Source of the DNA: Aureimonas sp. OT7
Lineage (GTDB): Bacteria > Pseudomonadota > Alphaproteobacteria > Rhizobiales > Rhizobiaceae
Direction of reading: 5' to 3'
Assembly: GCF_014844055.1 (NCBI RefSeq)
Contig: NZ_CP062167.1
Location: 1,751,501-1,815,500 of the forward strand
Length of the DNA: 64,000 nucleotides
The translations under genes were made by a program, and so were the position numbers. Numbering within the stretch: the first letter of the stretch is position 1; each line of letters starts with the position of its first letter. This document shows, piece by piece, positions 40,965 through 43,506 of the stretch. Under the pieces are notes generated by a model. It made no database searches and was not told the origin of the DNA. It worked only from the letters and a program-made list of their open reading frames with translations.

Positions 40965-41765
40965 ATGAGTGTGGACGTCAAGGCGGCGACCCTGGCCTGG
41001 CGCGACGGACGCTTTGCCGCCAGCGAAAGGCCGGTGCCGGAAGAGGCGGCTGTTGCCGTGTCGATCAACGGCACGACCCACGCCGTGATGATGGCGTCTC
41101 CCTCCGACCTGGAGGATATGGCGCTCGGCCTTGCGCTGAACGAGCGTATCGTCCGCACGGTCGATGAAGTCGAGCGCCTGGAGATGGAGCCGGTCGATGG
41201 CGGTTACGACTGCCGTCTCTGGCTCGTGCCGCAGCGGGCGGCCACCTATGTGGCGCGCCGCCGGCAGATGACGGGCCCGGTCGGCTGCGGCCTGTGCGGC
41301 GTGGAATCGCTGGAATACGCCACCATCTCCCTGCCGACGGCCGGGGACGCGCTGACGGTCGAGCCGGCGCAGATCGTCCGGGCGATGGAGGAGATGGCGG
41401 AGGGCCAGGTTCTGGGACGCCGCACCCGCGCGGTGCATGCGGCGGCGTTCCACCGGCCGGAAACGGGCTGCATCGTTATCCGCGAGGATGTCGGCCGGCA
41501 CAATGCTCTGGACAAGGTCACGGGCCATCTGGCGGCCACGGGCACGGAACCATCACTCGGCTTTCTGACGATCACCAGCCGACTTTCCGTCGAGCTGGTT
41601 CAGAAGGCCGCCATGATGGGTTGCGGCCTGGTTGCCGCCATATCCGTGCCGAGCGCGCTTGCGCTACGGGAGGCGGAGACGGCCGGCATCACCGTAATTG
41701 CCGTGGCGCGGGGAGATGCCTTCGAAATCTTCACCCATCGGCAACGGATCGTCGGGGCGGCCTAA
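40965..41765 (+). CDS. fdhD: Formate dehydrogenase accessory sulfurtransferase FdhD
   Basis: FdhD passes sulfur from IscS to the molybdenum cofactor of formate dehydrogenase. The 266-residue protein has the persulfide-carrying cysteines in TGPVGCGLCGVESL. The family blocks REDVGRHNALDKVTGHL and TSRLSVELVQKAAMMGCG follow. No fdh structural genes are in the window. The stop lies 3 bases before the duplicated element described next. Confidence 0.94.
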   Translation: MSVDVKAATLAWRDGRFAASERPVPEEAAVAVSINGTTHAVMMASPSDLEDMALGLALNERIVRTVDEVERLEMEPVDGGYDCRLWLVPQRAATYVARRRQMTGPVGCGLCGVESLEYATISLPTAGDALTVEPAQIVRAMEEMAEGQVLGRRTRAVHAAAFHRPETGCIVIREDVGRHNALDKVTGHLAATGTEPSLGFLTITSRLSVELVQKAAMMGCGLVAAISVPSALALREAETAGITVIAVARGDAFEIFTHRQRIVGAA

Positions 41766-41772
41766 CGACGTT

Positions 41773-41801
41773 CTTGAACGTCGATGCCGATGTGATAATA
41801 T
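41773..41801 (+). promoter_or_regulatory. Plus-strand promoter, element copy 1
   Basis: CTTGAA (41773-41778), 17 bases, TAATAT (41796-41801) fits the rhizobial sigma-70 consensus CTTGAC-N17-CTATAT. The -35 sits inside the inverted repeat GACGTTC-TT-GAACGTC (41767-41782). The start point would fall near 41808, at the edge of the 14-bp arm. Confidence 0.55.
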
Positions 41802-41807
41802 TCGTGC

Positions 41808-41864
41808 CAAGGGGGTGATGTTGCCCGGCTTCGGTTGGGACCGGCATTCACGCCGGCCCCTTTT
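41808..41864 (+). ncRNA. Predicted short RNA, element copy 1 (candidate antisense RNA)
   Basis: From the predicted start near 41808 the transcript reads through AAGGGGGTGATGTT. It ends at a GGGACCGGC/GCCGGCCCC hairpin (41837-41860, one mismatch) followed by TTTT, giving about 57 nt. It would be fully complementary to the 3' region of the minus-strand small-ORF transcript. The same stretch also contains an SD and ATG for a plus-strand mini-ORF (MLPGFGWDRHSRRPL...), but its frame is not conserved in copy 2. Confidence 0.4.
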
Positions 41865-41868
41865 CGGG

Positions 41869-41943
41869 TTACTTCCAGACCAGAATTAGGCTGCAACCAA
41901 ACAACCTGATCCGAAGTACCACTTTCCGAAGTTTCACAAACAT
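41869..41943 (-). CDS. 24-residue basic/hydrophobic peptide, copy 1 (type I toxin-like)
   Basis: The minus strand has AAAGGGGGTG directly before ATG, then 24 codons and TAA. The peptide begins MFVKLRKVVLRIR and ends LILVWK: a cationic N-half and a hydrophobic C-half, as in small membrane-acting peptides. A GTG at codon 3 is better spaced (8 bases) from the GGGGG and would give 22 residues. The SD and start lie in one arm of the 14-bp inverted repeat whose partner would lie in the 3' end of the same transcript. A weak -10-like TAGTAT lies upstream near 41995. It is too short for any family assignment. Confidence 0.45.
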   Translation of the reverse strand: MFVKLRKVVLRIRLFGCSLILVWK

Positions 41944-42069
41944 CACCCCCTTTCGGCTGCGCACGACAGCGCGTCGCGCGCGAGAGTCCTCTATACTATC
42001 GGGTTTGTATGTGTCGGCAGTGGATTGCGGTCAGGGCGGTCGTTGGCGTCGACGCAGCCTGAAAGCGTT

Positions 42070-42098
42070 CTTGAACGTCGACGCCGATGTGATAATAT
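42070..42098 (+). promoter_or_regulatory. Plus-strand promoter, element copy 2
   Basis: CTTGAA (42070-42075), 17 bases, TAATAT (42093-42098): the same promoter as in copy 1 with both hexamers and the spacing unchanged. One base differs in the spacer. Confidence 0.55.
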
Positions 42099-42104
42099 TC
42101 GTGC

Positions 42105-42161
42105 CAAGGGGGTGATGTTGCCCGGCTTCGGTCGGGACCGGCATTCGCGCCGGCCCCTGTT
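42105..42161 (+). ncRNA. Predicted short RNA, element copy 2
   Basis: The same design as copy 1, with the hairpin at 42134-42157. The loop differs (attcgc for attcac) while the stem is intact. The U tract is weakened to TGTT, so termination may be leaky here. Confidence 0.35.
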
Positions 42162-42163
42162 GG

Positions 42164-42238
42164 TTACTTCCAGATCAGTGTCAGGCTCCACCCAAACACC
42201 CTGATCCGAAGTACCACTTTCCGAAGTTTCACAAACAT
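42164..42238 (-). CDS. 24-residue basic/hydrophobic peptide, copy 2 (type I toxin-like)
   Basis: It has the same length, SD and stop position as copy 1. The first 13 residues are identical (MFVKLRKVVLRIR). The second half changes conservatively (Leu14 to Val, Cys17 to Trp, Ile20 to Thr, Val22 to Ile) and keeps the ending WK. No insertion or deletion occurs within the frame, whereas a 2-base indel lies right after the stop. Upstream, GATAGGATAGAGG matches the copy 1 GATAGTATAGAGG and may be a -10 region. Confidence 0.45.
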   Translation of the reverse strand: MFVKLRKVVLRIRVFGWSLTLIWK

Positions 42239-42339
42239 CACCCCCTTTCGGCTGCGCACGACAGCGCGTCGCGCGCATGAATCCTCTATCCTATCCAGTT
42301 TTAATTCGTCACCAGCCGCTGGCTACCAGCCGCCTGTTG

Positions 42340-43506
42340 TCAGTCGCGGTCTTCGCTGCCCGGGTCGGAATCTTCCGCCAGTTCCTGTGCGGCTTCTGCT
42401 GCCGGCTGACGGGTGAACCCTTCAAGCCCCGCATGCAGGTTGCGATCCCGCTCGATCTCCACCGGCGAGGTGGCATAGGCGGTGATGAGCTCCGTCAGCG
42501 AGCGCAGGGCGTGGATGTGAATGCGCTCCCACCCATGCGAGGCGTCCACGCCGAATGTGACGAGCGCGGTCCGAACGTCGTGCCCGGCCTCAACAGCCGA
42601 AGCCGAATCCGAACGATAGTAGCGGAACACGTCCTTCTGGTAACGAATGTCCTCGTCCTGGCAGAGCCGCACGAGCTTCTTGGTGAGATGATAGTCGAAG
42701 GGCCCGGTCTGGTCGGCCATGGCGATGGTGACGCCGAACTCCGAAGAGTTCTGCCCCGGCGCGGTCGTGCCGTTGTCCACCGCGACCATCGAGGCGACGT
42801 CCGGAGTGAGGATGGACGATGCGCCGACCCCGACCTCCTCGGCGATGGTGAACAGCCAGTGGATGTCCACCGGCGTCACGGTTTTCTCCCGCTCCAGCGC
42901 CTCGATGGCGGCCAGCATGATGGCAACGCCCGCTTTGTTGTCGAGATGACGCGAGACGATGAAGCCATTGTCGAGAAATTCTGGCTGCGGATCGATGGCG
43001 ACGATGTCTCCCACCTCGATGCCCAGCCGCGCCAGCTCGCGGCCGTCGCGTGACAGCGCGTCGACCCGAAGCTCCACATGCGGCCAGCCGACGGGATGGC
43101 TGTCCACGGCGTCGTTGAACGTGTGCCCGGACGCTTTCAACGGCAGGATCGTGCCGCGATAGGAGCCCGTGTCGGCGAAGATCGTGGCTCTTGCGCCCTC
43201 GGCGAAGCGGGCAGACCAATGCCCGATCGGCACCACTTCCAGGCGGCCGTTGGACTTCAGCGCCTTGACCTGCGCACCCAGAGTGTCGACATGGCTGACG
43301 ATTGCGCGGGCCGAAGCGCGGCGGCTTCCCTGCCGCAATGCTCGGATGGCCCCGCGCCGTGTCAGCTCGACCCGCAGGCCGAGGCGCTGCAGTTCATGCG
43401 TCACGTGCCGCACGATCGTATCCGTATAGCCGGTCGGGCTGGGTATACGGAGAAGGGCCTTGAGCTGGTCGGTCAGGTAATGGCTGTCGATCGAAAGCCG
43501 GGGCAC
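42340..43506 (-). CDS. NAGGN-system M42 family peptidase
   Basis: A 388-residue M42-type metallopeptidase: SHVDTLGAQVKALKSNGRLEVVPIGHW (first metal His/Asp), SRHLDNKAGVAIMLAAIEAL (bridging Asp), FTIAEEVGVGASS (catalytic Glu-Glu), and DASHGWERIHIHAL (last His). It is the third gene after asnO and ngg in the same orientation. This matches the osmoprotectant NAGGN operon, in which an M42 peptidase accompanies N-acetylglutaminylglutamine amide synthesis. Its exact task there is unknown. Confidence 0.9.
   Translation of the reverse strand: MPRLSIDSHYLTDQLKALLRIPSPTGYTDTIVRHVTHELQRLGLRVELTRRGAIRALRQGSRRASARAIVSHVDTLGAQVKALKSNGRLEVVPIGHWSARFAEGARATIFADTGSYRGTILPLKASGHTFNDAVDSHPVGWPHVELRVDALSRDGRELARLGIEVGDIVAIDPQPEFLDNGFIVSRHLDNKAGVAIMLAAIEALEREKTVTPVDIHWLFTIAEEVGVGASSILTPDVASMVAVDNGTTAPGQNSSEFGVTIAMADQTGPFDYHLTKKLVRLCQDEDIRYQKDVFRYYRSDSASAVEAGHDVRTALVTFGVDASHGWERIHIHALRSLTELITAYATSPVEIERDRNLHAGLEGFTRQPAAEAAQELAEDSDPGSEDRD

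Follow-up and report, generated by a model that had tools for sequence, protein, structure and literature searches.

In the TxpA/RatA and BsrG/SR4 pairs of Bacillus, which are located in prophages, a convergent antisense RNA lies over the 3′ part of the toxin mRNA, and the hok product has about 50 residues, with mok as an overlapping frame. Translational attenuators of the ermC type place a leader peptide, encoded by a short ORF with a strong Shine-Dalgarno sequence (SD), upstream of a gene whose own SD takes part in alternative pairing. In aapA/IsoA, the full-length mRNA is kept inactive by a 5′-3′ long-distance interaction and becomes active once its 3′ end is truncated, as described in the accessible part of PMC6733600. 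Membrane type I toxins are alpha-helical according to the accessible text of a review (PMC8309996), and type I systems were previously known from Proteobacteria, Firmicutes, and Tenericutes, to which a 2025 paper, in its openly readable portion, adds a cyanobacterial case (PMC12390103). Such systems are known from few lineages, and genes of 22 codons evade gene callers.

Here, we analyzed a stretch of 64,000 nucleotides of Aureimonas sp. OT7 (contig NZ_CP062167.1, positions 1,751,501 to 1,815,500), referred to as the window, and found that two adjacent units on its minus strand belong to a real RNA and peptide family that is linked to phages and has no match in the libraries and literature searched. 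We give a probability of about 0.5 to the reading that each unit carries a phage-derived peptide gene that would be silenced by long-distance 5′-3′ pairing, with a type I toxin-like function and a predicted antisense RNA. Rfam 15 at the gathering score gave no match in the window, and in seven relative loci it identified three tRNAs only. No match was obtained for 11 peptides tested against NCBIfam, Pfam, and PHROGs, for two peptides tested with PADLOC, or for nine Aureimonas-type peptides in a PDB profile search. The listed titles and abstract starts of the open literature on alphaproteobacterial type I systems, leader peptides, and phage repressors, with subscription papers mostly outside this scope, contained no description of such a unit, and neither did the accessible part of PMC5521070, from the literature on type I toxins and Sinorhizobium meliloti antisense RNA.

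Two tandem units between fdhD and an M42 peptidase gene

Copies a and b lie between two convergent genes. One is fdhD (40965–41765, plus strand), whose product matches FdhD-NarQ at E 5.4e-68; the other (42340–43506, minus strand) encodes an M42 peptidase (TIGR03106, 588 bits versus a cut-off of 398). By NCBIfam (TIGR03106), the peptidase beside the array is a member of the NAGGN osmoprotectant system. The tandem duplication described in the initial annotation is confirmed, with a spacing of 295–297 and with 88% and 90% identity in two reported blocks, and tandem copies are also present in another genome (G582). The annotation had also claimed perfectly complementary 14-base arms holding the SD and the start; the arms AAGGGGGTGATGTT / AACATCACCCCCTT (41809–41822 / 41939–41952 in copy a and 42106–42119 / 42234–42247 in copy b) are indeed 100% complementary over 14 nt in both copies, with a spacer of 116 nt in copy a and 114 nt in copy b. 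Each unit corresponds to a predicted RNA of about 150 nt with the features listed below, where bit scores come from R1, a structure model built from 11 copies, all with the ORF.

41805–41954, minus strand: copy a folded unit, comprising the closing stem P1, P2, the ORF hairpin P3, and the post-stop hairpin P4 (R1 162.4 bits, the copy being among the R1 building sequences; fold z −6.25)
41939–41952, minus strand: copy a 5′ arm of P1, containing the SD AAGGGGG (complementarity; P1 covariation)
41869–41937, minus strand: copy a putative 22-codon ORF, GTG to TAA, MKLRKVVLRIRLFGCSLILVWK (alignment, frame conservation)
41837–41860, minus strand: copy a post-stop hairpin P4, which on the plus strand reads as a GC hairpin and then TTTT (fold, covariation)
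41829–41834, minus strand: copy a 3′ strand of P2, CCGAAG, which pairs with CTTCGG at 41926–41931 within the ORF (fold, covariation)
41809–41822, minus strand: copy a 3′ arm of P1 (anti-SD), which we take to be similar to the 16S rRNA tail (complementarity)
41959–41981, minus strand: copy a upstream hairpin P0 (z −2.1)
42102–42249, minus strand: copy b folded unit (R1 165.1 bits, likewise a building sequence)
42234–42247, minus strand: copy b 5′ arm of P1 with the SD (complementarity)
42164–42232, minus strand: copy b putative 22-codon ORF with GTG start, MKLRKVVLRIRVFGWSLTLIWK (alignment)
42134–42157, minus strand: copy b post-stop hairpin P4 (sequence, fold)
42106–42119, minus strand: copy b 3′ arm of P1 (complementarity)

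The minus-strand frame that had been annotated as a 24-codon ORF is intact and conserved, but its start is not. Although the ATG-started 24-codon frame is present in both copies, the window ATG is replaced by AGA or AGG in the relatives G004, G005, and G296, whose own ATG, 4 nt further on, leads directly into TGA. An in-frame GTG 6 nt past the window ATG is kept in 10 of the 10 aligned Aureimonas-type copies. Since the ATG is lost in relatives and the GTG is common to all, we read the gene as 22 codons from the GTG, and the conserved ORFs would run from GTG 41937 to stop 41869 and from GTG 42232 to stop 42164.

Four relatives of the same genus (G004, G005, G007, and G009) have an fdhD-M42 gap of only 7–29 nt by aligned ends, so the array in the window looks like a gain; in 11 other M42 loci (L111–L121), an fdhD match was not found within the compared stretch. 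The number of free-standing copies at fdhD is two in the window genome, four in G001, and one in G002, the closest carriers in the genus being Aureimonas altamirensis, and one free-standing copy is found in A. psammosilenae (G296), from another genus of the same family. Identity in the core is 89–95% versus 66–90% in the 80-nt flanks over eight comparisons. R1 located the unit in 5 of 21 genomes of the genus. When 297 family genomes were searched with a DNA query, eight had a match at E ≤ 0.001. Only the window genome (G000), G001, and G296 contain true copies; in the remaining five, the matches span 22–50 nt and were rejected.

RNA structure and covariation

The minus strand of 41805–41960 folds with a z of −6.25 against 200 dinucleotide shuffles, none of which was as stable, and the plus strand with a z of −5.07. 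In an alignment of 11 copies (A4), 12 pairs have two-sided changes, a number reached in 0 of 500 shuffles. When 33 members were aligned by fitting them to the structure, which makes pair counts lean towards it, 90.6% of cells pair and two-sided changes are found in 40 of 51 pairs (281 cells); the covariation score of these members is 0.478, versus 0.177 in shuffles (0 of 500 as high) and at most 0.127 in slid controls. Covarying pairs make up 10 of 14 in P1, 9 of 10 in P4, and 8 of 10 in the main block of the ORF hairpin, and the compensatory changes in P1 support the earlier proposal that pairing sequesters the SD.

Among 19 representatives, all except G356 fold more stably on the sense strand than on the complement (18 of 19), with a mean difference of −11.4 versus −3.3 kcal/mol in shuffles, so selection seems to act on the ORF-carrying RNA. 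The P0 hairpin, 5′ of the SD, has a mean z of −2.7 over 22 copies, V064 being positive. Of the 17 copies followed by a downstream gene, 16 have a predicted unpaired probability of 0.00 for the SD of the mini-ORF, and V064 has 0.40. The predicted self-silencing fold of this RNA and peptide family is strongly supported.

Paralogue differences cluster near the tip of the ORF hairpin, which is the middle turn of the peptide, in both tandem sets (window 41805–42249 with L003; L091 4470–5274 and 14046–14587). At the tip, 10 of 21 positions differ per set versus 7 of 33 and 5 of 33 in the preceding codons, the borders of the first set being 2 nt off.

A short frame under coding constraint

We compiled 35 members of the family from Aureimonas, other alphaproteobacterial genomes, and phages. 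The candidate gene of the initial annotation thereby gained homologues with an intact frame, as 33 of the 35 members keep an ORF of 21–25 codons that starts 11–15 nt past the SD. Its length is exactly 22 codons in 26 of the 33 and 21, 23, or 25 in the others, and its start lies at nearly the same place whether the codon is TTG (11 ORFs), GTG (10), ATG (7), or CTG (5), the last of which is a rare start codon. Shuffled interiors yield a comparable ORF in about 2% of trials, a per-copy chance of about 0.02.

Codon position, which had been put forward as a check on the frame, is suggestive in the ten closest copies, where 13 of 32 changes are synonymous (P 0.12), whereas the frame signal is clear across 19 divergent copies. 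In these representatives, all below 80% identity, the mean pairwise BLOSUM62 score is 1.30 per residue in the coding frame versus 0.43–0.81 in the five other frames. As the close-copy test is weak, the coding case rests on the 19 divergent copies, and the small ORF (<60 residues) appears to be under real coding constraint.

A structured non-coding RNA or a miniature mobile element with an incidental ORF would also agree with the strong, covarying fold, with a unit that occupies an intergenic gap so short in four relatives, with its tandem multiplication, and with the weak codon bias among close copies. We consider this explanation improbable, as the similarity is frame-specific, start and stop are kept in 33 of 35 members, such an ORF is rarely produced by shuffling, and the start codon itself varies while its place is nearly constant.

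All peptides are basic, from +1 to +7, and many alternate hydrophobic with other residues and have G-W or G-P near the middle. In 15 of 19 representatives, the hydrophobic moment calculated from sequence is larger for the beta angle than for the helix angle, which sets them apart from known membrane type I toxins. The phage copies L067 and L073 encode plainly hydrophobic peptides that resemble the classic hydrophobic type.

Phage copies precede a regulator gene

The initial annotation needs a further correction, as the unit is also a phage element and usually lies 5′ of a regulator gene. In phages and prophages, it is found immediately 5′ of a small regulator gene, mostly of the helix-turn-helix (HTH) type, and a downstream gene follows a short way past the 3′ arm in 21 of the 35 members; chromosomal copies are also free-standing, in arrays of two to four. 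Unlike the fdhD setting, G004 and G005 have the unit directly 5′ of a small HTH gene. A terminase small-subunit gene adjoins the unit in G004 (Terminase_2, E 1.8e-33), and the viral contig L016 contains the sequence found in G004. Upstream of the viral HTH relative L023, we found the same anatomy in a very different sequence.

Viral contigs were also scanned for the arms only (AGGAGGTGAG, 105–135 nt, CTCACCTCCT), the ORF being no criterion, and nine contigs were obtained, including the already known L023 (as L054). All nine contain a 21–23-codon ORF starting 14–15 nt past the arm start, and all nine match R1 and have a downstream gene; seven of these genes start like M[TS]P..FK.WR HTH proteins, and those of L061 and L062 are HTH-like by eye. 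A relaxed arm pattern matched 22 contigs, of which 8 were known, 3 were accepted (L064, L067, and L073), and 11 were dropped (L063, L065, L066, L068–L072, and L074–L076). Among the dropped contigs, L072 (E 1.3e-4) and L063 (E 0.0058; 39-codon ORF) had weak scores with R2, a structure model built from 33 copies, and lack an ORF of about 22 codons. The repeat AGGTGGAGAG...CTCTCCACCT was intended as a null, but two of its three matches (L077 and L079) are true members by R1 and one is unrelated, so the repeat is not a clean control. Because every copy used to build R1 had the ORF, the members that this model found are biased towards such copies; the members found by arm pattern with no ORF requirement are L054–L062, L064, L067, L073, L077, and L079.

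The family is sparse in the sampled genomes and is found mainly in this order and in phages. R1 detected the unit in 6 of 397 order genomes, in the named phage record MW202613, and, among 385 class genomes, in that of the window and in G827. With R2, the window genome was the single one of 249 phylum genomes to match, and 5 of 297 order genomes matched, including one weak partial match (G415, E 0.0016). BLAST of the unit against phages and plasmids gave no match. Five copies are present in G582, from another family of the order, at two unrelated chromosomal loci with arrays of three and two, and no HTH gene lies directly downstream of any of the five. Relatives of the HTH gene are present in 90 of 297 order genomes; the upstream DNA of 30 order and 2 viral HTH loci (L022–L053) contains the unit only in L022, L023, and L024, and no unit was found upstream of an Azospirillum plasmid HTH relative.

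Several further observations were made at these loci. The window genome encodes, outside the window (G000:C1:1843765-1843968), a second relative of the phage HTH protein with 56% identity over 68 residues, upstream of which no inverted repeat was found. In A. frigidaquae (L005 2014–2430), an ORF near the unit matches HicB-like and HTH models weakly, with scores that do not reach the curated cut-offs. Three copies look decayed: in G356 (L024 1589–1743), the SD arm is broken and the ORF starts with CTG, G395 (L092 4970–5120) has lost the stop, and G658 (L085 1501–1647) has lost the SD. By eye, palindromes such as GTACTCAGTAC recur 5′ of the unit in L054, L056, and L059, where the HTH operon has its promoter region, and they are perhaps autoregulation operators. 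Three consecutive tRNA genes lie beside the unit in phage contig L067 (3816–4049).

The position before a regulator gene raises the possibility, which we regard as somewhat unlikely, of a leader-peptide switch, in which the mini-ORF and its fold would be part of the 5′ leader of a small regulator gene in phages. Once P1 is opened, by a ribosome translating the mini-ORF or by an antisense RNA, the anti-SD arm could pair with the regulator SD, with alternate use of the two starts. Chromosomal copies that stand alone would then be remnants or have been put to a new use. The downstream gene shortly past the arm in 21 of 35 members argues for such a switch. So does a unit in L064 (530–675) that lies 5′ of a different small gene, without a Pfam match and possibly ribbon-helix-helix by eye; the module is therefore not bound to a single regulator family, as expected of a modular leader. 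The regulator SD is predicted to be less accessible without the 5′ arm and ORF in 15 of 17 scored copies, but the effect is opposite in V055 and unchanged in G681, and the result is partly trivial, since any anti-SD arm pairs with a nearby SD. Against a leader, free-standing copies retain the ORF, SD, and fold with no regulator gene directly 3′, and the frame of the ORF is conserved for peptide similarity.

Candidate antisense promoters

On the plus strand beside the anti-SD arm, all seven fdhD-locus copies have the promoter-like site TTGAAC-16-TAATAT, which in the window is located as follows.

41774–41801, plus strand: copy a promoter-like site TTGAAC-16-TAATAT, its second box preceded by TGA (P 0.013, mononucleotide shuffles)
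42071–42098, plus strand: copy b promoter-like site TTGAAC-16-TAATAT, its second box preceded by TGA (P 0.010, mononucleotide shuffles)

The corresponding sites are TTGATA-16-TATGTT in G296 and TTGACG-16-TAGAAT in G582c, with TG before the second box throughout; four of the five G582 copies have weaker promoter-like sites. By a simple score against mononucleotide shuffles, 24 of 33 members have a site with P ≤ 0.05 and nine are above. In HTH-linked copies, the antisense −35 and −10 boxes overlap HTH codons and the start region, which confounds the score, and the sites of free-standing copies could be relics of an HTH-linked ancestor; G582c still resembles the start of an HTH gene by eye. A stricter independent scan of 41700–42400 listed neither the copy a nor the copy b site and found no promoter or terminator, including none at 41809–41822. 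In phage relatives, the RNA would need to continue past the 3′ arm to serve the downstream gene. By binding the anti-SD arm, the predicted antisense RNA might also free the SD instead of blocking it.

Proposed mechanism and comparison with known systems

We propose a phage-derived module in which a basic hydrophobic peptide of about 22 residues would be encoded on a self-silencing mRNA. The 5′ arm, with its near-perfect SD, would pair with the anti-SD arm beyond the stop codon and enclose the ORF and 3′ UTR hairpins in a loop, and no ribosome is predicted to load on the complete RNA. By analogy with AapA/IsoA, translation would require the 3′ arm to be lost or displaced, and trimming by an RNase is one possible way. 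The 3′ UTR would be covered by a short antisense RNA, for which we predict a start close to the anti-SD arm and perhaps an end at P4; it may restrict translation or provoke decay by RNase III. The peptide gene lies 5′ of a small regulator gene in phages, and on chromosomes it would have become free-standing and tandemly multiplied.

Most probably, the peptide would act in addiction, exclusion, or growth arrest, in the manner of a type I toxin. We infer toxicity from the likeness of the design and from the character of the peptide, while the beta-leaning moment, the CTG starts in 5 of 33 ORFs, and the downstream gene in 21 of 35 members would count against a toxin. At somewhat below even odds, we hold the tentative view of an undescribed phage family in which a 66-nt stretch both encodes a cationic, beta-hairpin-like peptide and forms an RNA stem. 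Its expression would be locked through 5′-3′ pairing and tied to a small regulator gene, and bacteria would have adopted it in free-standing tandem arrays. It would represent a new class of RNA-silenced peptide modules, distinct both from the classic helical type I toxins and from simple leader peptides. The unit appears to be a silenced toxin or control peptide of a new kind. As a case of protein and RNA structure constraining the same bases, the family offers testable peptides and RNAs, along with two structure models able to find more members.

The unit shares with ermC-type attenuators a short ORF with a strong SD, followed by a gene whose own SD has an alternative pairing partner, but its free-standing chromosomal copies have no downstream regulator gene. 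TxpA/RatA and BsrG/SR4 share with it the prophage location and a convergent antisense RNA overlapping the 3′ part, which is predicted here; they differ in that most copies of the present unit have no evident helical membrane segment and that it can form an operon with a regulator gene. The peptide of about 22 residues differs from that of hok/Sok, which has about 50, and the unit has no evident mok-like overlapping frame. What the two designs have in common is a downstream anti-SD that holds the SD in an inert mRNA, as given for hok/Sok in the accessible part of PMC6733600.

The closest likeness is to AapA/IsoA of Helicobacter pylori, which, in the same accessible text (PMC6733600), combines a small cationic hydrophobic peptide, several copies, an SD paired with a 3′ anti-SD in an inert mRNA, and an antisense RNA from the opposite strand, the last of which is only predicted here. 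True membership of this epsilonproteobacterial family would agree with the similar long-distance occlusion of the SD and with the alignment of the copy a peptide with AapA1 over 19 residues (P 0.005; AapA1 sequence from the accessible part of PMC10537873). We nevertheless consider membership very improbable. The peptide has no family-wide similarity to AapA1, as P is below 0.05 against shuffles in just 5 of 22 peptides and above it in 17, so we propose a likeness of design and do not infer membership. In addition, the antisense RNA is predicted to start opposite the 3′ UTR and not opposite the ORF. Unlike in AapA/IsoA, the ORF itself is a covarying stem, the anti-SD of phage copies precedes a regulator gene, and the unit is found in alphaproteobacteria and in phages.
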